A stretch of 64,000 nucleotides of DNA from Ornithodoros turicata (lineage: Eukaryota; Arthropoda; Arachnida; Ixodida; Argasidae), in assembly GCF_037126465.1 (NCBI RefSeq), contig NC_088202.1, positions 103,447,962 to 103,511,961 on the forward strand. The letters run 5' to 3'. Numbering within the stretch: position 1 is the first letter of the stretch; every line of letters starts with the position of its first letter. Under the pieces are notes generated by a model. The model did not search any database. It worked only from the letters and a program-made list of their open reading frames with translations, and was not told the DNA's origin. A program made the position numbers and the translations under genes. Shown here piece by piece: positions 21,439 to 60,712 of this stretch.

Positions 21439-21444
21439 CAAGTC
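21439..21444. repeat. Left 6-bp target-site duplication CAAGTC
   Basis: CAAGTC immediately precedes the AGTAGTAATTGG terminus and recurs at 30334-30339 immediately after the opposite terminus. A 6-bp duplication is the expected product of a Polinton-type integrase. Confidence 0.85.
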
Positions 21445-21489
21445 AGTAGTAATTGGTCTGGTCGTATGGTCGTGGGTCCACTCAGCAAC

Positions 21490-21830
21490 CTGGACCCCTG
21501 CGTGGATTTTTCCCCGCGCGGCGCGTGTGCGGAGGGTTGTCAGCACGGTTATCTGCGAGGGGAGGGCTGCGTGCGCGCTTACCCTCTCACATTTTTCAGG
21601 CTGGGCCGACTTCTTTCGACATTTTTGAGCCTTGGCCGATTTTTTTTCGCGATTTTTTCCTGTGCGCGGTAGGCGGCGCTCGGGTGGAGGCTCTTACCGG
21701 TGGGCGGAGCGTGGCCGGACGGATGCGTGCGCGCTTACCCGCTCACATTTTTCACCCTGGGCCGACTTCTTTCGTCATTTTTCAATCTGTGCTGAATTCA
21801 ATCGCAATTTTTTTCCAGCTACAACAGGTG
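21490..21830 (+). repeat. GC-rich subterminal tandem units, left
   Basis: Two units of roughly 150 bases each carry GCGTGCGCGCTTACC followed by CTCACATTTTTCA and a CTGGGCCGACTTCTTTCG core. The composition contrasts sharply with the AT-rich interior. They may serve as binding sites for replication or integration proteins, but that is inference. Confidence 0.7.
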
Positions 21831-24086
21831 TGCAGTAGACTGTTTACATGCAAAGGATAGCCATACACAAAAGTACAAGTGAAAATATATTTATTAATGT
21901 CATTAGTGTCAGGAATTATGTTATGACTCTATGTGATGGAGAAAAACCCAGCCAAAAACCTGAAGCAGAACAAACACAATACAATACGTGTAACAAAGAT
22001 TATACTTATTACAGGTATGATGCAATAGCATTGAAGGGGCATCACACATCATACACAATATTTTTTAGTGGTAATCACGCGTTTTCAATTAAGCAGAAGG
22101 GATAGCACATTTAATCAAAGAAGATATTTTAATCAATATGATTACAATCAAAATTAGAAATTTTATTATAAAAAGTCTCACATTTTTCAGCCTTGGGCAG
22201 ACTTCTTTCGTAATTTTTCCGCCTGGGGCGACTTCATTCGTATTTTTACCCGATACAACAGGTGCGCAGTAGGTGGTTTACATGCAAGTATAGACATGCA
22301 AAGAGGAGTCATACACAAAAAGTACAAGTGAAAATATATTTCTTAAAGCCAATAGTGCTGGGAATTGTAATGCCAATTGTGATGCCAATCAGGTGAAGGA
22401 GAAAAACCCAGCCGAAAAACCTTCACGACCTGTAGCAAAAGAAATAAAAACACAAGACAGTACATGTGAATAATATACAGATTTTATTCACTATACCTAG
22501 CCATCTGATTCTGAAAGAAAACATAAAATCAACATTCATCACATTGCTTACTAGTTTAATATTCCAACATGACACAAATAATCAGTTTCTTATGAAGTGA
22601 ATAGCGCAGACATAAGGAAATAATCCGAATCAACACGATCAACACATAGCATTAGTATAGAACCAATCCTCCAATGTGTAGGGAAATAATAGCTACACAA
22701 TACCATATCAAAATGAGAAACAGTCACCACATTTAATCAAACAACCAGCTCTGATGATATCTGCTATGATTTATTGAAGACGGGTGCCGATAGATGTATG
22801 GAAGACCACGGAACACGAACGACACGAACACAAGAAGAAATAAATCTATCCCACTACAAAGAAGCTATTCTTAATGAATATGATTACAATCAAATTACAA
22901 GTTGTATTATAAAAAGTCTAATATTACTATACGTGCGAACCATCATTGCAATAGTGTGAATATCTATCGTAACATTTCGCGCGCAATAGGGAATCTAAGT
23001 TTCATATTCCAACATTACACAACTCTTAATTAACCAGTTTCTTATTAAGTGAACAGCATAGACGTAAGGAAATAACGAGAAACAACACAATCAACAGCTA
23101 CAATTAATAAAGAGCAAAACCTGCGCACCATCCAGCACATAGAGAAACAATAGCTAATCAATCTATCAAAAAGCGAAATATTACAATTTTAACACTATAG
23201 CACAGACTTAACGCTGAAGAACAGAGGAACACTCTAAGCGGCGACACGTAAACAACAACAGAGGAAAATAATCTGTAATTGAACCATCATGAAATCGAAC
23301 AATATACAATTTTCATTCTAACAAACACTACGAACCTTGATGGAGGTATCCAAGACATAGAAAATATGCACGGTTTTCATCTCGGTTTTCACTCTTTTCC
23401 TCACAGCCGGGAGACTGTATGCTTTATCCCATGCTTTATCACTCAAAGGGTGTGGGGCTATATTCCTTCGTCCAGCAAACAGAACGCTCTAGAGGTCAGA
23501 TAAGATAGTTCAAAGCCGATATATTTCATTGTGCAGTGCAAATAGATGCCGATATTACTCGTTGGGATCACTATCTTTTCGCATCCTTTCCTTGAAACGG
23601 AAATCTTTCGTCAAAGTCGTTGACAAGTCGACTAAGTTTGTACAGATGCGATATTCTTATTGAACATGTAGATAAAGTCCAAATTATTCAATGGTACCAA
23701 CAATACTCAATCAAAAACGAGAAACAAATTTAATTACATCAATTTTTGTAATACCTTGCAACAGAAAGTTCTAATGAACCACACAGAAATATCAAATGTG
23801 AAATGCAACTCAGAGGTATGAGGCATTCCCATCTTAGAGATTATTTTTACTTATATCAATCGAGTGAGCAATTGAAACAAATGCAAGACAATAATTATTT
23901 CAGGTAGTAACTTCACAACTCATAGAATATCAGTCGAGTGAATACTTGAAACAAAGTCAAAAAACATAAATTCTCACGACAGGTGGATATTACAGCATTC
24001 TAAACCAGATAATAAAATTTTAATAAAATGACCATAGATACGCTTTTAATTAAGTGTAGACGAGCACTTGAAAACAGAAGAGACAA
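21831..24086. other. AT-rich non-coding interior of left arm
   Basis: No supported gene. Several AT-rich modules recur within the arm and are mirrored in the right arm. Examples are TTATAAAAAGTCTAATATTA-type sequence and AGAATATC-type sequence near TTTAATCAAA. A 74-codon frame (23279-23503) has a mirror at 27838-28029, but the two disagree by frameshift after about 40 codons, so coding is doubtful. Confidence 0.5.
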
Positions 24087-24104
24087 TTGCTCTGCATTGA
24101 AAAG

Positions 24105-24656
24105 ATGGACAGATTTTGTACTCGCTACCATAAATCATGGGAAGATGTGATAAAAAGCTGCTTCGAAAAGGAAGAGCCGCGAAACGATTCCATTATTGCT
24201 GCATTTGAATACGCCCTAGACATGGTCGTATTCGGAGATATGGTACAAACTAGAGAACTGCAGGTGCAGGAATTTATATGCCGAATCTACAGTACTTATA
24301 AAAATATCTGCACATCAACGTCGGAAGGGCCACTGGGATTGATGGCGGAGTTTTTGAGGTTTGCTAATGAAGAATTGAAATACACTAGACCAGATGTAAT
24401 TGTAATCATTGTAATGGGCGTTGCGTTCATCAAGAAAGCAGTCGGATCGAATTATCATATACAAGCGGTCTATATCGCACGATTCATTACGGATTTGTTG
24501 AAATTGCACATATCTGAGACGTATCTGAGACGGAAAGTACATAAAAACTTATCACATGATATGTTCCACTACCATGACAACACAATTATTTTCTTCTACC
24601 AGTCTCTGCAACGATGTCGAATGAGCAGAAGTTCAGTATTATTGTACAAGGTCTGA
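24105..24656 (+). CDS. Tentative Bcl-2-like small protein, left copy (altered C-terminus)
   Basis: The frame is open from ATG 24105 (an in-frame ATG 18 bases upstream is also possible). The predicted protein is all-helical in character. The segment VIVIIVMGVAFIKKAV followed by VYIARFITDLLKLHI mimics the hydrophobic pattern of Bcl-2 helices 5 and 6. The canonical BH1 NWGR is absent, so the call is tentative. Compared with the right arm, a tandem duplication of about 10 bases near 24513 (GTATCTGAGA) shifts the frame. The right copy stops soon after LHISE, while this one reads about 40 codons further into what should be non-coding DNA and over the next gene's start. If correct, the ancestral role would be blocking host-cell apoptosis. 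Some adintoviruses are, to my knowledge, reported to carry Bcl-2 relatives. Confidence 0.5.
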   Translation: MDRFCTRYHKSWEDVIKSCFEKEEPRNDSIIAAFEYALDMVVFGDMVQTRELQVQEFICRIYSTYKNICTSTSEGPLGLMAEFLRFANEELKYTRPDVIVIIVMGVAFIKKAVGSNYHIQAVYIARFITDLLKLHISETYLRRKVHKNLSHDMFHYHDNTIIFFYQSLQRCRMSRSSVLLYKV

Positions 24657-24838
24657 TGTATCATCACTTATTGAAACTCAACGAACATATCAACTGCGGT
24701 GGACCACCGGACGATTTTCATCTAATACTGTCTTGTACGCCATTCAAGAACATTCATACAAAGAAAGGAAACAGCAATAAGAGACCCTTTCTTCGTGGTT
24801 TAAGTAAATTTCGTTCCGAAAATAATCGTAACTTTTAA
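24614..24838 (+). pseudogene. Second palindrome gene, left copy, truncated
   Basis: The first 56 codons or so (starting MSNEQKFSIIVQGLMY) match the 115-codon right-arm copy at 26379-26726. Homology ends at 24784 where the palindrome stops. The remaining codons are unrelated sequence from the loop, so this copy lost its C-terminal half when the palindrome formed. No family recognised. Confidence 0.65.
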
Positions 24839-26555
24839 TATCCACGACATAGAGAATTCACATTATGATATAGTGTATATAGAAGATATCAATCCATTCG
24901 ATTAAATTCTCTGTCATCATGAAAGAGTGCTCGTCAAAGTGAGCAAGCTCAAGCTTACGTATTGTGAAATTACACATTCTACAACACTGATCGTAACTCG
25001 CAACATCTGCTCAAATTTTAATTAAACTCTTACTGATGAAAGATGAAAGTCACTGAAAAGGTTAGCCAGCTGTAGGAGTCGAACCCACATCTTCTGGATG
25101 TGTGGTAGTCACCACTTCTCCTGAATGTGAATCGATAAATTATAGCATTTAAGCCACAATCAAATATCTTGTATAGTATGTGTGACTATATGCAGAACTT
25201 TTTAATCTATATCTTTTAAAAAATGCAAGAAATAGCGTGCAGTTTTGGCTTTAAAAATTTAAAGAAGAAAATGAGCTTTAATGTTGAGTTTGCGTTTCAC
25301 AACGTTATGAGCTAAAAACTTATAAAATTAAAGTATGGCCTTTCCATTTGTAGTGCCCGGATGCTATGACACTAAAATAATGTGATAGCTTTTCTGTATG
25401 GCTACGGGAAATCTCGAGTATATTTTGTGAATTGGATCTATGTTTATGTGTGACCTGCGCTGATGTGGTTATTATAATTAATATACCATATCTTCCACTG
25501 TGTTTATGCATAACGCTCATCTTCATTGTATATTGGTTAAGCACTTCTGATGGCGGTTGTGTGATCCGCTTCTCCCAAAATCTGATTGCCACTTGGAAAT
25601 TATTTCATATACGTTTGTGTGCCGTGTGTTACGAAGATTACGTGATTAGAAACGTAGACTTGGCCTGCACGTGATGCTCGTAAAATCCTTGGTTTGCATT
25701 GTGGCATCTGATAATAGATTCGCTTTTCGCGAAGACTTCCTATTATCTCGCAGGCACTGAACCCGAATGCAGTTGATGACACTGTGGCGAACGCTTTGAC
25801 TTATCCTGCCGCGATCAGTTATCTTGCCTTATTTCCCGTTTTGCCCTATTTTGGACAGCTCCTTTTTCCTATCCAGACACACAAATGGATAACTGTGTTG
25901 ACGAAAATATTTATTCCGCGCTTGTTGCTTGTCAAAGACGCCTTTTCGTCTTCTTTTCCTACGTCTGGCCTAGTCCAACTGTTTGAGAAATATACAGGCA
26001 CTGTGGAATTTAATTCGTGAAATGTGATAAGTTTTCACAAAAGATTGATGATCCTTTTCTTTTGTAATCAAAGATTGATGTATCATGCCTCAAATTTCAA
26101 TGTCCGATCATTCTCCGACAATTCTATCCTTGGGGTGATGAAGTTGTACAGAGTGTAGTCGGGGAAAAAACCTATTTGATGACTAGCTTTGATTCGATAT
26201 TAGAATTTTTGCACATAGTGTGGAATATTCGTTCCCTCAGCAATCATTGTGTTCAATCTAGCCATACCAAATGCAAAGTGTTTTTCATTGTGATGCATAG
26301 AATTCATTATAATGATGACAAAGAATACAATTATTATTTCAATTATACACTTGTTTATTTCGATAGATTACAATTGTCCTATTCCAAACTCTGAAGTTTT
26401 CGTTTGTTGTCTTGATTGATGAATTCGGAATGTATTGCATAATGATGTCTTATTAGTGCGTGCTTGAATCCAGCGTTGCTTAACGCAGGTGATATGTTGT
26501 CGCTGTGCTTGTACTGCTTCAGTAACTTGCACTTTGTTGCGACGAACTTGCACAA
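24785..26555. other. Unique central loop of the palindrome
   Basis: This stretch has no inverted counterpart. Its right-hand end (26379-26555) encodes the C-terminal half of the second gene, continuous with the right arm. The right side of the loop is therefore parental sequence, and the left junction at 24784/24785 is the break. It also contains a SINE-related fragment (25035-25125). A 78-codon plus-strand frame (25784-26020) and its neighbours show no recognisable polymerase, integrase or capsid motif. Confidence 0.65.
25035..25125 (-). repeat. Fragment of tRNA-Thr-like SINE inside the loop
   Basis: GATGAAAGATGAAAGTCACT, followed by GGTTAGCCAGCTGTAG and a GAACCCACATCTTCTGGAT segment, matches the complete SINE copies at 60.2 and 60.5 kb. 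The homology breaks off in the anticodon-arm region, so the copy is truncated. Confidence 0.7.
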
Positions 26556-26726
26556 TCTCTTATTGATGTTTCCTTTCTTTGTATGAATGTTCTTGAATGG
26601 CGTACAAGACAGTATTAGATGAAAATCGTCCGGTGGTCCACTGCAGTTGATATGTTCGTTGAGTTTCAATAAGTGATGATACATAAGACCTTGTACAATG
26701 ATACTGAACTTCTGCTCATTCGACAT
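26379..26726 (-). CDS. Unknown 115-aa protein, right-arm copy (apparently intact)
   Basis: An uninterrupted frame from ATG 26726 to a stop at 26379. It begins about 70 bases downstream of the stop of the Bcl-2-like gene on the same strand, suggesting a two-gene cassette. The protein is hydrophilic and rich in Lys, His and Asn, with a few cysteines but no clear zinc-binding spacing, signal peptide or membrane segment. No family is recognised. The left-arm copy preserves about the first 56 codons with only a couple of substitutions, which is mild support for past coding constraint. Confidence 0.5.
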   Translation of the reverse strand: MSNEQKFSIIVQGLMYHHLLKLNEHINCSGPPDDFHLILSCTPFKNIHTKKGNINKRLCKFVATKCKLLKQYKHSDNISPALSNAGFKHALIRHHYAIHSEFINQDNKRKLQSLE

Positions 26727-26795
26727 CGTTGCAGAGACTGGTAGAAGAAAATAATTGCGTTGCCATGGTAGTGGAACATATCATGTGATAAGTTT

Positions 26796-27246
26796 TTATG
26801 TACTTTCCATCTCAGATATGTGCAATTTCAACAAATCTGTAATGAATCGTGCGATATAGACCGCTTGTATATGATAATTTGATCCGACTGCTTTCTTGAT
26901 GAACGCAACGCCCATTGCAATGATTACAATTACATCTGGTCTAGTGTGTTTCAATTCTTCGTTAGCAAACCTCAAAAACTCGGCCATCAATCCCAGTGGC
27001 CCTTCCGACGTTGATGTGCAGATATTTTTATAAGTACTGTAGATTCGGCATATAAATTCTTGCACCTTCAGTTCTGTAGTTTGTACCATATCTCCGAATG
27101 AATACGACCATGTCTAGGACGTATTCAAATGCAGCGATAATGGAACCGTTTCGCGGCTCTTCCTTTTCGAAGCAGTTTTTTATCACATCTTCCCATGACT
27201 TATGGTAGCGAGTACAAAATCTGTCCATCTTTTCAATGTCGAGCAA
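26796..27246 (-). pseudogene. Tentative Bcl-2-like gene, right copy, frameshifted
   Basis: The same gene as 24105 on the left, with most residues identical. An extra 4 bases (ATTC repeated, near 27097-27105) shift the frame after the DMVVF segment, splitting it into an N-terminal piece (27246-27028) and a C-terminal piece (27089-26796). Unlike the left copy, the C-terminus stops shortly after LHISE (SEMEST then stop), which is likely the ancestral end. The two copies are therefore broken at different places. Confidence 0.6.
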
Positions 27247-29960
27247 TTGTCTCTTCTGTTTTCAAGTCTCGTCTACACTTAATTAAAAGCATATCTATGG
27301 TCATTTCATTAAAATTTTATTATCTGGTTTAGGATGCTATAACATCCACCTCTCGTGAGAATTATTGTTTTGACTTTGTTTCAAGTATTCACTCGACTGA
27401 TATTCTATGAGTTGTGAAGTTACTACCTGAAATAATTATTGTCTTGCATTTGTTTCAATTGCTCACTCGATTGATATAAGTAAAAATAATCTCTAAGATG
27501 GGAATGCCTCATACCTCTGAGTTGCATTTCACATTTGATATTTCTGTGTGGTTCATTAGAACTTTCTGTTGCAAGGTATTACAAAAATTGATGTAATTAA
27601 ATTTGTTTCTCGTTTTTGATTGAGTATTGTTGGTACCATTTAATAATTTGGACTTTATCTACATGTTCAATAAGAATATCGCATCTGTACAAACTTAGTC
27701 GACTTGTCAACCACTTTGACGAAAGATTTCCGTTTCAAGGAAAGGATGCGAAAAGATAGTGATCCCAACGAGTAATATCGGCATCTATTTGCACTGCACA
27801 ATGAAATATATCGCCTTTGAACTACCTTATCTGACCTCTAGAGCGTTCTGTTTGCTGGACGAAGGAATATAGCCCCAAACCCTTTGAGTGATAAAGCATG
27901 GGATAAAGCATACAGTCTCCCGGCTGTGAGGAATGAGTGAAAACCGAGATGAAAACAGTGCATATTTTCAAGGTTCGTAGTGTTTGTTAGAATGAAAATT
28001 GTATATTGTTCGATTTTATGATGGTTCAATTACAGATTATTTTCCTCTGTTGTTGTTTACGTGTCGCCGCTTAGAGTGTTCCTCTGTTCTTCAGCGTTAA
28101 GTCTGTACTATAGTGTTAAATTTGTAATATTTTGCTTTTTGATAGATTGATTAGCTATTATTCCTCTATGTGTTGGATGGTGCGCAGGTTTGGCTCTCTA
28201 TTAATTGTAGCTGTTGATTGTGTTGTTTCTCGTTATTTCCTTATGTCTATGCTTTTCACTTAATAAGAAAGTGGTTAATTAAAAGTTGTGTAATGTTGGA
28301 ATATGAAACTTAGATTCCCTATTGCGCACAAAATGTTATGACAGATATTGACACTATTGCAATGATGGGTCGCACATATAGGAATATTAGACTTTTTATA
28401 ATACAACTTGTAATTTGATTGTAATCATTGATTAAGAATATCTTCTTTGTAGTGGTATAGATTTTATTTCTTCTTGTGTTCGTGTTCCGTGGTCTTCCAT
28501 ACATCTATCGGCACCCGTCTTCAATAAATCATAGCAGATATCATCAGAGCTGGTTGTTGGCTAGGAGCGTGCTATGTGGTGAAGTTCATTTTTAACATAT
28601 CTATTTTCTGTGTTGATAAAACAAAGTAACGTTTGTAGTGTCTCTTAGAATGAAAATTATATAGTGTTCGATTCGATTATGTCACGATGATGATTTTATG
28701 ATAGTTAAAGTGATAGATTATTCTCCTCTGTTGCTTTGATTAAGAATAACTTCTTTGTAGTGGTATAGATTTTATTTCCTCTTTGTTCGTGTCGTTCGTG
28801 TCCCATGGTCTTCCAGGGTCTCTGCTGTTCACAGTTAATAGTGAGTTTTAGTATACCGTTGATAAGGTTATCGTGTGTATCGGAACCAATCGTAGTCGCT
28901 CGTGACTCAAATCTTATCCACTGATTGGATCCGGTTGATACGGTTTGACGCAAGCCAGGTTATCAACGGTCTGCTAAAACTATCTATTTCCATACAACTA
29001 TCGGAACTTCCCTCTATTGAACTGATGGTTCTCACGTATAGGAATATTAGACTATTTTTAATAGAACTTGTAATTTTGTTTGTATTCATATTGCTTAAGA
29101 ATATCTTCTTTGATTAAATGTGGTGACCGTTTCCCGTTTTGATATGGTATTGTGTAGCTATTATTTCCCTACATGTTGGAGGATTGGTTCTATATTAATG
29201 CTATATGTGTTGATCGTGTTGATTCTAATTATTTCCTGATGTCTGTGCTACTCACTTCATAAGAAACTAATTAAATAAATTTGTGTCATGTTGGAATATT
29301 AAACTAGTAAGCAATGTGATGAATGTTGATTTTATGTTTTCTTTCCGATGGCTAGGTATAGTGAATAAAATATGTATATTCTTTACATGTACTGTCTTGG
29401 ATTTTGTTTCTTCTGTTTCAAGTCGTGAAGGATTTCAGCTCGGGTTTTCTCCTTCACCTGACTGGCATCACAGTTGGCATTACAATTCCCAGCACTATTT
29501 TCTTTAATAAATATATTTTCACTTGTACTTTTTGTGTACATCTGTTAGAACTTTGTAATTAAAACGCCACTATGGTGCTCACATATAATAATGTTAGAAT
29601 TTTTATAATAAAACTTTTAATTTTGATTGTAATCATATTGATTAAAAATATCTTTTTTGACTAAAATGTGCTACTCCTTCTGCTTAATTGAAAACTTGCG
29701 TGATTATCAATAATAAAAAATTGTGATACTCCTTCAATGCCATTGCATCATGCCTGTAATAAGTATTGTTACGTGTATTGTGTTTCTTCTGCATCAGCGC
29801 TTTTTTGGCTAAGTTTTTCTCCTTCACACAGAGTCATCACATAATTCCCGACACTAATGACTTTAATAAATATATTTTCACTTGTAGTTTTGTGTATGGC
29901 TATCCTTTGCATGTAAACAGTCTACTGCACACCTGTTGTAGCTGGAAGAAATTAGCGATT
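27247..29960. other. AT-rich non-coding interior of right arm
   Basis: Mirror of 21831-24086 with extra insertions (see 28540-28990). No supported gene. Confidence 0.5.
28838..28987. mobile_element. 150-bp MITE inserted only in the right arm
   Basis: The left end ATAGTGAGTTTTAGTATACC is mirrored by GGTCTGCTAAAACTATCTAT at the right end, with a second inner match (CGTTGATAA / TTATCAACG). The corresponding place in the left arm lacks it. The terminal motif matches the MITE at 51941-52108. Confidence 0.7.
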
Positions 29961-29984
29961 CAAGCCGGCTCAGGCTGAAAAATG

Positions 29985-30260
29985 ACGAAAGAAGTCGGCC
30001 CAGGTTGAAAAATGTGAGAGGGTAAACGCGCACGCAGCCCTCCGGCCACGCGCCGCCCACCGGTAAGAGCGTCCACCCGAGCGTCGCCCACCGGTCGCGG
30101 GAAAAAATACGCGAAAAAGGTCGACCAAGGCTAAAAAATGTTGAAATAAGTCTGCCCAGGCTGAAAAACGTGAGAGGGTAAGCGCACACGCAGCCCTCCC
30201 CCACCGATAAGCGCGCGAAAACCCTCCGCACACGCGCCGCGCGGGGAAAAATACGCGAAG
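29985..30260 (-). repeat. GC-rich subterminal tandem units, right
   Basis: Mirror of the left subterminal units: GAAAGAAGTCGGCCCAGG and GGTAAGCGCACACGCAGCC-type blocks repeat twice at about 150-base spacing. Confidence 0.7.
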
Positions 30261-30333
30261 GGCTCAGGGCAGGGCCCAGGGGTCCAGGTTGCTGAGTGGA
30301 CCCCCCGCTCCTACGACCAGACCAATTACTACT

Positions 30334-30339
30334 CAAGTC
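30334..30339. repeat. Right 6-bp target-site duplication CAAGTC
   Basis: Exact copy of 21439-21444, immediately outside the CCAATTACTACT terminus. Confidence 0.85.
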
Positions 30340-31315: not shown

Positions 31316-32120
31316 CTACGAGGCAGAAATGAATCGTAAAATGATCTCGCTGAGCATCAGAGGATGCTCACTTTCTGCGGGTGATCGGTACGAGGCAACA
31401 TTGAGTCGTAGGCGGTGGAGAAGGAATATTTCTTTACGGCTACGGTGGCAAGTGATGACGAACTCTATCAATGGGTCGATAGACCGTAGGAATGAGTTGG
31501 ACGTCGAAGTTTCGGCACGGAACTGCTGAGCACATGTGGCACACCGACGACTTATGTGTAGACGGCATGTGGAGGCTGTAAGCGGCAGAGGTGCCAGGGC
31601 CGAAGTGTCATCAGACCCAGTGCGTCTCGCTACTGCGTCTGCTCGGGTATTTCCATACACGCCTACGTGGCCACCCATTGAAACGTGATGTTGTAACCAG
31701 TGGCGAAGAGTTCATTGAATTTTTGAAGCGTCATGGTATGCAAATCGCTTATTATGCTGGGGCGTGATGACGACAACATATCTAGTGATGCCTTGCTGTC
31801 GGTAAGAATGACCCACGTTCCGTGCCCGGATTCGGTAATATGCTCCAGTGCCGCCAGGACAGCTCGGCTTCTGTCGAGGACACTGCATAGAGGAATTTGA
31901 AACCGTGCCCCAGGTCTTCATCCGGAACGTAGAAAGCCGCGCTCGAACTATCTTGGGTTACTGAGCCATCGGTGTATATATGGCGACTTAGTCGGTGTGT
32001 TGAGGCGAGGGGCTTCAGTGTGACTTGGTGGGCCACGACTGTGGACGTCTTCCTTGCGTTGGAGGCCAAGAATGTCGGAGTGAATACAGGATCTTTCAAG
32101 AGTCCACATCGCCAGTGCAT
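31316..32120 (-). pseudogene. LINE RNase H domain and C-terminus, frameshifted
   Basis: HIYTDGSV (first Asp) and VSSTEAELS (Glu) are in one frame. ILTDSKA-type sequence (second Asp) follows a frameshift near 31862, and GGHVGVYGNTRAD (His and last Asp) is in the 31678-31316 frame. The C-terminal part contains LHRLRLNVASY, the conserved RLRLNVA block also seen in the LINE piece at 39.5 kb. Confidence 0.75.
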
Positions 32121-32149
32121 AGGATGGTGTAGACGCGGGAGATGGAATG

Positions 32150-33821
32150 CTCCTTTTCAGGTGGGCAATGGCACTGCCGAAAGCAAACACCGGGCAGTCC
32201 TCATCAATGCGACAAAGAGAGTGGATCGGATGCCGTGTAATGTAGCGTATATAAGCGCGAAAGGTATCACCATCCCGCAGTATCTGAACCGGCTGCTCTC
32301 GCGCCTCTGCCAAGACAGAATACGTCTGCGTTGTCCTGGGGACTCGCAAACAGACACGGAGACTACGGGCCTGGATGTTGAGCAGTTCCCGTTCTTGGGT
32401 GCGACTGAGACCATGCAGAATGGGTAAGCTGTACCGCAATGTCAACAACACCAGGGCTTGATGGGCGCGATAGAGGTCAGAGCATGACGGGCCCCAGGAT
32501 GCACCAGCAATACGCCTCAGTACATTTACCAAACAGTTTCCCTTGGTAGCAAGCAGCTTCACATTCTGGGACCACGTCAGGCCACGGTCAATTGTAATCC
32601 CCAGGTATCGGCAGGTCGTGACAAAGGTCAGGGGTGAGCCATCAATGAAAAGCGGGTACTTATGGAATGATCTTCGTGAGAATGCCATGGCTACTGTCTT
32701 GCTAGGCGAGACAACCAAGCCGCGGTGCAAGAGGTATCTTGAAATGATGTTTAATGAACCTTGTAGTCGGCGTTGGATCGTGTCACGCTGAACGGCGGAA
32801 GTCCAGATACATATGTCGTCAGCATATATTGTAATGTGAGTGTGATTGTGAAGCTGCGCAGGAAGAGAAGCCATAATGATATTGAATAAGAGGGGACTGA
32901 GGACGCTCCCTTGTGGGACACCACGGTGCACGCGGAACGGGGAGCGGTCAGCCAATTAGTCATTAATCCATGACCAGGGGCAGCCCCCGACTTCAGCTTC
33001 TGAAAGCTTCGCCATGATTGCGCGATGGAGGACACTGTCGTACGCTTTCTTGACGTCGAGGAAAACAGCGGCTGTCAACAAACCTTCGGCCCTTGCCTGT
33101 TGTGTCCTACTGGTTAGAGATATGACGCTGTCCATCGCTGACCGGCCTGGGCGAAAACCCGCCATCGCCTCTGAAAAAAAAAAACAAGAAAAAAACGTGC
33201 TCTCAAGGTACCAGCTCAGGCGGTTGAATATTATACGTTCCAATGTCTTCCCCACACACCTTGTAAGAGCTATTGGGCGGAAGGAATCGATGTGATGCGG
33301 TGATTGACCTGGTTTCCGTAAAGGGACCGCCATCGCGGTCTTCCACTCGTTAGGGACTTCTCCTTGGCTCCAGCTCTTGTTGAAGATCCGTAGGAGGGAG
33401 GCTCGCCCTGACAGGGGAAGATTCCGAAGGGCCTTATACGTGATCTGGTCTGCTCCAGGGGAAGTATGCAGAGGAGAGTCCCGTAGTACAGAGTCGAGTC
33501 GAACTCGAGAAGGGTAAGGAGCAAGTCCAGAGCCGGGTCTTTCGAAGACTGCATACCGGGTGGAAGACCTCGAGCTGATGAGAACACGCCTTGAGGCGGC
33601 GCTGTGAGGGGCACGCAATAGTCCTTCAAAATGCACAGTTCAGAACGCGAGGTGGCCAAGGACAGTGAGCGGAACGGGTGCCGTTGAACCACAGGAGTAG
33701 AAAGTCCCTTGAGCACTCCCCAAATCCGAGACATAGGGGTACGGGGAGACAGAGATGTCGAAAAACGACGCCAATGATCCCGTCCGAGTCTACACAAGTG
33801 CCGGTGGACAGCCTTCTGCAC
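32150..33821 (-). pseudogene. LINE reverse transcriptase with internal stop
   Basis: The linker (HWRRFSTSLSPRTPMSRIW) leads to RT motifs TYKALRNLP, WKTAMAVPLRKPG, SFRPIALT, GFRPGRSAMD, FLDVKKAYDSV, GVPQGSVLSPLLFNI, the catalytic YADDICIW (YADD intact), and YLGITID in the thumb. A TAA interrupts the frame at 32953-32955 region, between SWIND and LADRSPF. An A-rich insertion (about 33173-33198) adds a Phe/Ser/Cys-rich patch before the GFRPG motif. Despite intact catalytic aspartates the copy is inactive as it stands. Confidence 0.85.
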
Positions 33822-34079
33822 ACGTCGCGCTTCTTGGCGGTCGTGTGGTAGATGGGTGCGTCGCGCACGCCGTTCCGCGCGGCGACGAAGGGTACGGAGC
33901 CGCTCGTATTAGGCGTCCACTGCAGAGAAATGAAAAGGGAACCGGAATGTCCTTGTAGCCTCCTGCGTCGCATTAGCCACTGCATTAGCCACTGAGCGAC
34001 GGAAGTCCTGCTCATTTCGGATCCCACAACTTGAAGAAGCAATCTTGATGGCGTCTTGATAGTGTTGCCAGTTTGTCCG

Positions 34080-60177: not shown

Positions 60178-60362
60178 CGATGAAAGATGAAAGTCACTGA
60201 AAAGGTTAGCCAGCTGTAGCGATCGATCCCACATCTTCTGGATTACCGGTCCAGGGCTCTACCAATTGAGCTAAGCTAACACGCCTCTCCAGGGACTTTC
60301 GGGGTGCGTCATCTGAAGGGACGACAAACCAGCCACTCACTCACCCTCCTTTCACTCTTACA
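60178..60362 (-). repeat. tRNA-Thr-like SINE, copy 1
   Basis: The minus strand contains a complete tRNA-shaped sequence from GTTAGCTTAGCTC to AGCTGGCT. Flanks are CCCGAAAGTCCCTGGAGAGG and AGTGACTTTCATC. This copy has changes in the T loop (GATCGATCGC) that damage the B box. Confidence 0.75.
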
Positions 60363-60509: not shown

Positions 60510-60712
60510 ACGATGAAAGATGAAAGTCACTGGAAAGGTTAGCCAGCTGTAGGGATCGAACCCACATCTTCTGGATTACCGGTCCAGGGCTCTACCAATT
60601 GAGCTAAGCTAACACGCCTCTCCAGCGACTTTCGGGGTGCGTCATCTGAAGGGACGACAAACCAGCCACTCACTCTCACTCACCCTCCTTTCACTCTTAC
60701 ATTTTTTCACTT
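60510..60712 (-). repeat. tRNA-Thr-like SINE, copy 2
   Basis: On the minus strand, the acceptor GTTAGCT pairs with AGCTGGC. The D arm is GCTC-AATTGGTA-GAGC, the anticodon arm is CTGGA-CCGGTAA-TCCAG (anticodon GGT, but C instead of U at position 33), and the T arm is GTGGG-TTCGATC-CCTAC. All four stems pair with a few G-U pairs. The identical flanks at copy 1 and at 25.0 kb show it is a dispersed repeat, not a single tRNA gene. Confidence 0.75.

Follow-up and report, generated by a model that had tools for sequence, protein, structure and literature searches.

What kind of mobile element has the ends of a Polinton, consists almost entirely of two inverted arms and displays no recognisable Polinton core gene? 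This question is raised by a stretch of 64,000 nucleotides from the genome of the tick Ornithodoros turicata (contig NC_088202.1, here C2:103447962-103511961; hereafter the window), in which a palindromic element of 8,889 bp occupies positions 21445-30333 and ends in AGTAGT...ACTACT. One arm (21445-24784) is an inverted match to the other (26556-30333) along its whole length: of 3,168 aligned columns, 3,000 are identical and 168 mismatched, with 38 gap events. The inverted termini are perfect over 22 bp (left, 21445..21466, plus strand; right, 30312..30333, minus strand), each starting AGTAGTAATTGGTCTGGTCGTA, and the duplication CAAGTC, read directly at both sides (21439..21444 and 30334..30339), reflects insertion as one piece. 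The terminus starts with (AGT)2, a motif also reported from Mavericks, those of vertebrates being described as having (AGT)2//(ACT)2 ends, 6-bp duplications and repeats of 46-1,447 bp (PMC8097293).

Palindromy, Polinton-type ends, insertion in one piece, two small genes per arm (A and B) and the lack of visible core genes had all been put forward in a preliminary description of this DNA, and are upheld here. A Pfam scan of 17 window frames of at least 63 amino acids (among 109 of at least 40) gave no match at cut-off, the best being DUF3023 at E 0.022, and neither these frames nor nine frames of three other copies contained a cut-off match to PolB, integrase, capsid, ATPase or protease. The results presented below indicate that the window element belongs to a large family that is probably a satellite, namely a non-autonomous Polinton-type family with a heritable giant-palindrome genome, for which Polintons would supply replication and insertion in trans. 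Neither a palindromic or non-autonomous Polinton family nor an integrating, wholly palindromic Polinton satellite is described in the titles and abstract openings of the literature searched (repeat databases being outside the search), in agreement with the preliminary description, which knew of no class with this architecture.

Palindromes of one plan in the tick genome

The 1.8 kb between the window arms had been taken for a unique loop, and the junction at 24784 for the joint of a copy-back event; neither interpretation holds. Upon searching the host genome (1.07 Gb, 379 contigs), the "loop" gave 98 matches from the best 40 candidates scored, including inverted pairs around a gap of ~156 bp, and the outer left arm gave 62 matches, also from the best 40 candidates scored, many of them in facing pairs 9-13 kb apart and others without a listed partner. 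Since the "loop" occurs as inverted pairs about a short gap, intact members are read as palindromes of ~10-13 kb, and the "loop", present in at least 40 scored places, as the inner part of both their arms. In the window it is the inner part (24785-26555) of a right arm that measures 5,549 bp as far as the edge of the lost centre (24785..30333, minus strand). The left arm (21445..24784, plus strand) has lost its inner end to a later deletion of ~1.9 kb, whose joint (24783..24785, compared with fetched sequence L044) has a 2-bp GA microhomology, the inner left arm and a 155-bp centre being gone. The window copy is a damaged deletion product of a larger palindrome. Divergence between its arms is uneven, with 0-6% per 250 bp over the inner 2 kb and 9-11% over the outer 1 kb.

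Ten facing pairs chosen from the outer-arm matches were fetched in halves, and seven further loci later; the C184 locus is regarded as a second assembly copy of the C8 locus because their flanks are alike. Inverted arm alignments were obtained in all ten pairs, which had been picked as facing. Arms of the same element are 93-99.6% identical over their main pieces, and the fetched arms share 69-96% identity by piece with the window right arm. Ends were read in 13 distinct loci, with four further fetched loci not among them, and ten of the 13 have an exact 6-bp target-site duplication: besides the window, C13 (GTCAGA), C2:81.4 Mb (GATGCC), C1:174.1 Mb (AACTTC), C8 (TTCGCA), C1:151.2 Mb (CATACC), C5:63.4 Mb (TACGTA), C4:33.6 Mb (ATCAGC), C4:51.9 Mb (ACCTTT) and C2:104.4 Mb (AACGGC, at its outermost ends). 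At C5:35.2 Mb five of the six bases agree. The (AGT)2 motif has one changed base at the right end of both C13 and C1:174.1 Mb. Palindromes can be misassembled, as the doubled C8 locus recalls, but an assembly artefact has almost no credence given the number of loci, each with a duplication of its own, their diverged arms and their fixed geometry.

The centre of the C13 element (155 bp, 62% GC), used as a probe, has counterparts of ~75-95% identity in 11 of the other 16 loci fetched, which argues for one old origin. If one strand folds, this centre is the unpaired loop and, as in copy-back genomes, one terminus is doubled and inverted around it. Thus, what had been described as a single derivative is a large old family with a conserved centre, and the proposed copy-back origin stays plausible as one ancient event at that centre, though not at 24784. 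In the C1:174.1 Mb locus, the centre appears twice in inverse orientation (C1:174104501-174105195, L052), so that the midpoint of this palindrome has shifted.

To judge from its sequence, a second giant palindromic family, unrelated to the first, is present in the same genome. Its representative (C4:49788899-49803418; L069, L070) spans 14.5 kb inside the C4:49.8 Mb member of the first family, with arms 94-96.5% identical, AGTAGT at the left end, a one-base variant at the right end and the 6-bp duplication TACATC. By blastn it resembles neither the window nor the one first-family arm compared, and its outer arm occurs in 15 facing pairs of 9.1-22.8 kb among the best 40 copies scored.

These features bear on the alternative that the family arose by deletion from a Polinton and has extremely long terminal repeats, similar to a miniature inverted-repeat transposable element, its palindromy being accidental and without a role in replication. 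The terminal inverted repeats of Polintons vary in length, and the ends and 6-bp duplications are the same. On the contrary, the repeats of the intact copies read reach the centre, well apart from the range quoted above for vertebrate Mavericks (PMC8097293), the centre is conserved, and an unrelated family follows the same plan, all of which makes this alternative unlikely. Pairs with wider spacing (18-33 kb) were considered as autonomous parents and rejected, since they hold other insertions, including an ISXO2-type transposase and the second palindrome; no Polinton core gene was recognised in them when frames of at least 120 amino acids were read by eye only. The transposase frame (ISXO2/IS1595-type, PF12762) is inserted in the family member of the C5:35174801 region (L064 1074-2435, minus strand).

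The ends of the 13 loci differ among elements in the 25-60 bp behind AGTAGT, the next stretch being conserved, and the terminal sequence agrees between the two ends of one element. Such a pattern suggests that termini, and with them replication ends, may have been exchanged. Likeness of arms within elements extends further: in a tree of 33 arm pieces from 18 loci (matches below 500 bp dropped), 15 loci contributed both arms, and in 13 of them the two group as sisters (support of at least 88, or identical), the other two being unresolved. The arms thus became alike either by the time of each insertion or through later conversion. Conversion in the chromosome is seen at least once, at C2:104403521-104418375 (L047, L048), where an inverted copy of the left host flank (identical at 320 of 321 bases) lies beyond the inner right end and a second right end comes after it; one arm was copied onto the other within the chromosome, and host DNA was captured in the process. 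Such a flank copy beyond the inner right end is what would be expected if the palindromes had arisen by inverted duplication of an ordinary element in the chromosome, with gene conversion keeping the arms alike. Nonetheless, in the other loci with ends read palindromy ends at or within a few bases of AGTAGT, and in most loci target duplications flank the whole palindrome, so that this explanation is highly improbable.

Genes A and B

Gene A encodes ~150-160 amino acids and gene B 115, both being read towards the centre in the fetched arms. Among 22 arms (ten fetched elements plus the window), frames longer than 90 amino acids are open in 17 for A and in 15 for B, some of them shortened. Between subfamilies, the ratio of nonsynonymous to synonymous divergence (dN/dS) amounts to 0.24-0.34 for A, at a synonymous divergence (dS) of 0.25-0.35 (window and L043 versus other subfamilies), and to 0.18-0.24 for B, at dS 0.36-0.51 (window alone versus other subfamilies); for A, the comparison of window and L043 gives 0.54 at dS 0.07. 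Among very close copies the ratio ranges from 0 to above 1, too shallow for use. In seven pairs, which were chosen and overlap, synonymous changes are in significant excess (P 0.005 to 6e-5). Between elements, purifying selection thus acts on both A and B. Differences between the arms within fetched elements, pooled over nine arm pairs, number 5 synonymous and 19 nonsynonymous, which is a neutral ratio.

The search with B yielded 3,871 candidates, of which the best 150, unselected for pairing, were scored and represent up to 113 loci. As many as 147 are stop-free, and many tie at 221.0 bits, as expected of a young burst. Within 16 kb they form 37 converging pairs, and no diverging or same-strand pair, at spacings of 1,467-3,321 bp (commonest 2,924 bp) and, in one case, 14,288 bp.

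Comparisons with known proteins gave only scores below cut-offs in Pfam for either gene and, among solved structures, three matches for A at E about 1 and none for B. At the thresholds used, no relative of A or B appeared in viral contigs, and none among 5.8 billion proteins searched with B alone and with alignment A1. Folds predicted from single sequences had mean pLDDT values of 47 (A) and 43 (B) and were not used, and the idea that A might be Bcl-2-like found no support. By these comparisons, A and B are two orphan protein families, kept by selection. They probably act for the satellite itself.

Polintons as candidate helpers

At least 91 scored matches to PF03175 (Polinton-type polymerase, PolB) occur in the same genome, many in stop-free frames of 1,142-1,282 amino acids. 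In a 4.5-kb piece upstream of a PolB on C7 (L080) there is an ATPase frame of packaging type (PF13173, Pox_A32), together with a weak and truncated integrase match (E 0.036) that does not reach its cut-off. Adintovirus integrases are reported to be frequent in Ixodes ticks (PMC10675110).

A terminus pattern, AGTAGTAAWDRGBSTKGTC, was written from the ends of five palindromes and found 217 matches, versus 6 for the reversed control. The 100 of them that were listed include 37 converging pairs closer than 30 kb and one diverging pair; a scored B lies inside 11 of the pairs and a scored PolB inside 2, when 0.035 would be expected for PolB (44 PolB loci on C1-C3, 100 of the 217 matches listed). Of these two PolB elements, that at C1:169887654-169899172 has AGTAGTAATAGGTCTTGTC at both ends, while that at C3:80465225-80478329 has it at the left end and a match to the pattern at the right one. 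The same 19-mer is found in palindromes with paired B, such as C1:40602969-40614434. For a third PolB locus (near C1:93620069), the sequence 981 bp away is AGTAGTAATAGGGGTTGTC, with which the palindrome C4:33569636 also ends. Helper candidates sharing the 19-base terminus, as a satellite would have, are present in the same genome at these three loci. Elsewhere, the 22-base terminus had no related match in viral contigs, and a 17-base one had 34 matches in prokaryote genomes, against ~30 estimated by chance.

As to the full-length relative whose search had been recommended in the preliminary description, PolB loci with the palindromes' terminus exist, but no parent carrying A and B was found: when the best 91 PolB loci were compared with the best 150 B copies, none stood less than 30 kb from a B, the nearest being at 34 kb. 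At this distance the palindromes seem separate from their helpers. This also bears on the proposal that defective copy-back genomes are made repeatedly from a living parent Polinton with a single A and B. Their form is as copy-back would yield, and A and B are under selection; against it, diverged subfamilies have the same centre (11 of 16 other loci), B copies stand in converging pairs and no such parent lies near the scored B copies, all of which makes it very unlikely.

For the satellite family preferred here, a mechanism of several steps can be envisaged: (i) the founding palindrome probably arose once, in the deep past, by copy-back at the centre of a protein-primed genome, (ii) the protein-primed PolB of a helper would copy the linear palindrome from either of its identical ends, (iii) the displaced strand would fold back on itself as a ~6-kb duplex hairpin looped at the centre, rebuilding a double-stranded origin, (iv) arm mismatches would be evened out within the hairpin, and (v) the helper's integrase would insert the linear form. 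In its fullest version the proposal is more tentative, and we hold it as a possibility somewhat short of even. It states that at least two unrelated families of virus-like satellites are obligately self-complementary, that protein-primed copying by helper Polintons yields snap-back hairpins, that the arms are corrected each cycle, that the two selected genes are retained in duplicate, and that the outermost 25-60 bp are exchanged to match helpers.

Several observations weigh against the satellite reading or parts of it. Terminus identity between PolB elements and palindromes extends over 19 bases only and concerns three of the 91 scored PolB loci; on C1-C3, 12 kb around 41 of the 44 PolB loci contain none of the 100 terminus matches listed of 217, and 26 of those 100 lack a listed partner. 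The ATPase and the weak integrase match belong to L080 and not to the PolB loci that share the terminus. No clear target duplication was seen in two of the 13 loci (C2:123.0 Mb and C4:49.8 Mb), and 76 of the 150 scored B rows lack a listed partner, although this means little because only the best candidates were scored. Regarding the arms, two of the nine pooled pairs are the assembly copies C8 and C184 of one locus, and the window's own arms, outside the pool, are synonymous-rich (9 of 18), unlike the pooled others. Chromosomal copying at C2:104.4 Mb implies that the hairpin need not be what evens the arms out, and the replicating form itself is a prediction from genome sequence.

In comparison with known systems, the palindromes resemble Polintons, Mavericks and adintoviruses (Orthopolintovirales), including the PolB-bearing ones of this genome, in their (AGT)2...(ACT)2 ends, terminal inverted repeats and 6-bp target duplication. 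They differ from them in lacking matches to the five core genes in the frames scanned, in inverted repeats that run to the centre and in a length of 10-13 kb. A protein-primed linear genome with one end doubled in mirror image is likewise known from copy-back or snap-back defective genomes and from symmetric adenovirus-host recombinants, on which the literature search turned up no paper. These are transient laboratory products, whereas the palindromes form a lineage that is old, inherited and integrating and whose genes are under selection. Foldback transposons also combine very long inverted repeats with inner repeats, but their target duplication is of ~9 bp, and the palindromes have one of 6 bp, Polinton ends and conserved genes in both arms. 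Self-complementary adeno-associated virus genomes fold into one long hairpin too, although their ends and priming differ, and the palindromes are natural and integrated with target duplications.

Palindromes of ~12 kb are unstable in chromosomes, and many eukaryotic DNA viruses are traced to a root close to the Polintons. If the satellite reading is true, it would explain the spread of ~12-kb palindromes to more than 100 sites, a snap-back genome would be able to become a stable and very successful lineage, and protein-primed replication would have a natural eukaryotic system.

Further features of the window copy

The outer arm of the window element has a GC-rich end followed by diverged repeats of ~80-250 bp (21485..22440), as does the right arm. 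Its genes reflect the damage to the copy. The left copy of A (24105..24656, plus strand) has a C-terminus altered by an 11-bp insertion near 24515-24525, and the right copy (26796..27228, minus strand) is disrupted by a 4-bp insertion near 27105. The right copy of B (26379..26726, minus strand) is open over 115 amino acids, and the left one (24614..24838, plus strand) is shortened by the deletion.

A 65-bp piece at 25035..25099 (minus strand) resembles the 3' part and trailer of tRNA-Thr. It was considered as a primer relic and rejected, since ~61 bp of it are an insertion whose position is empty in five other loci compared. The same fragment recurs at two tandem tRNA-Thr genes of the window (60179-60243 and 60512-60576), and also in L061. 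Beyond the right end of the element, on the minus strand of 31316-33908, frames recognised by eye resemble a non-long-terminal-repeat retrotransposon (reverse transcriptase, RNase H).

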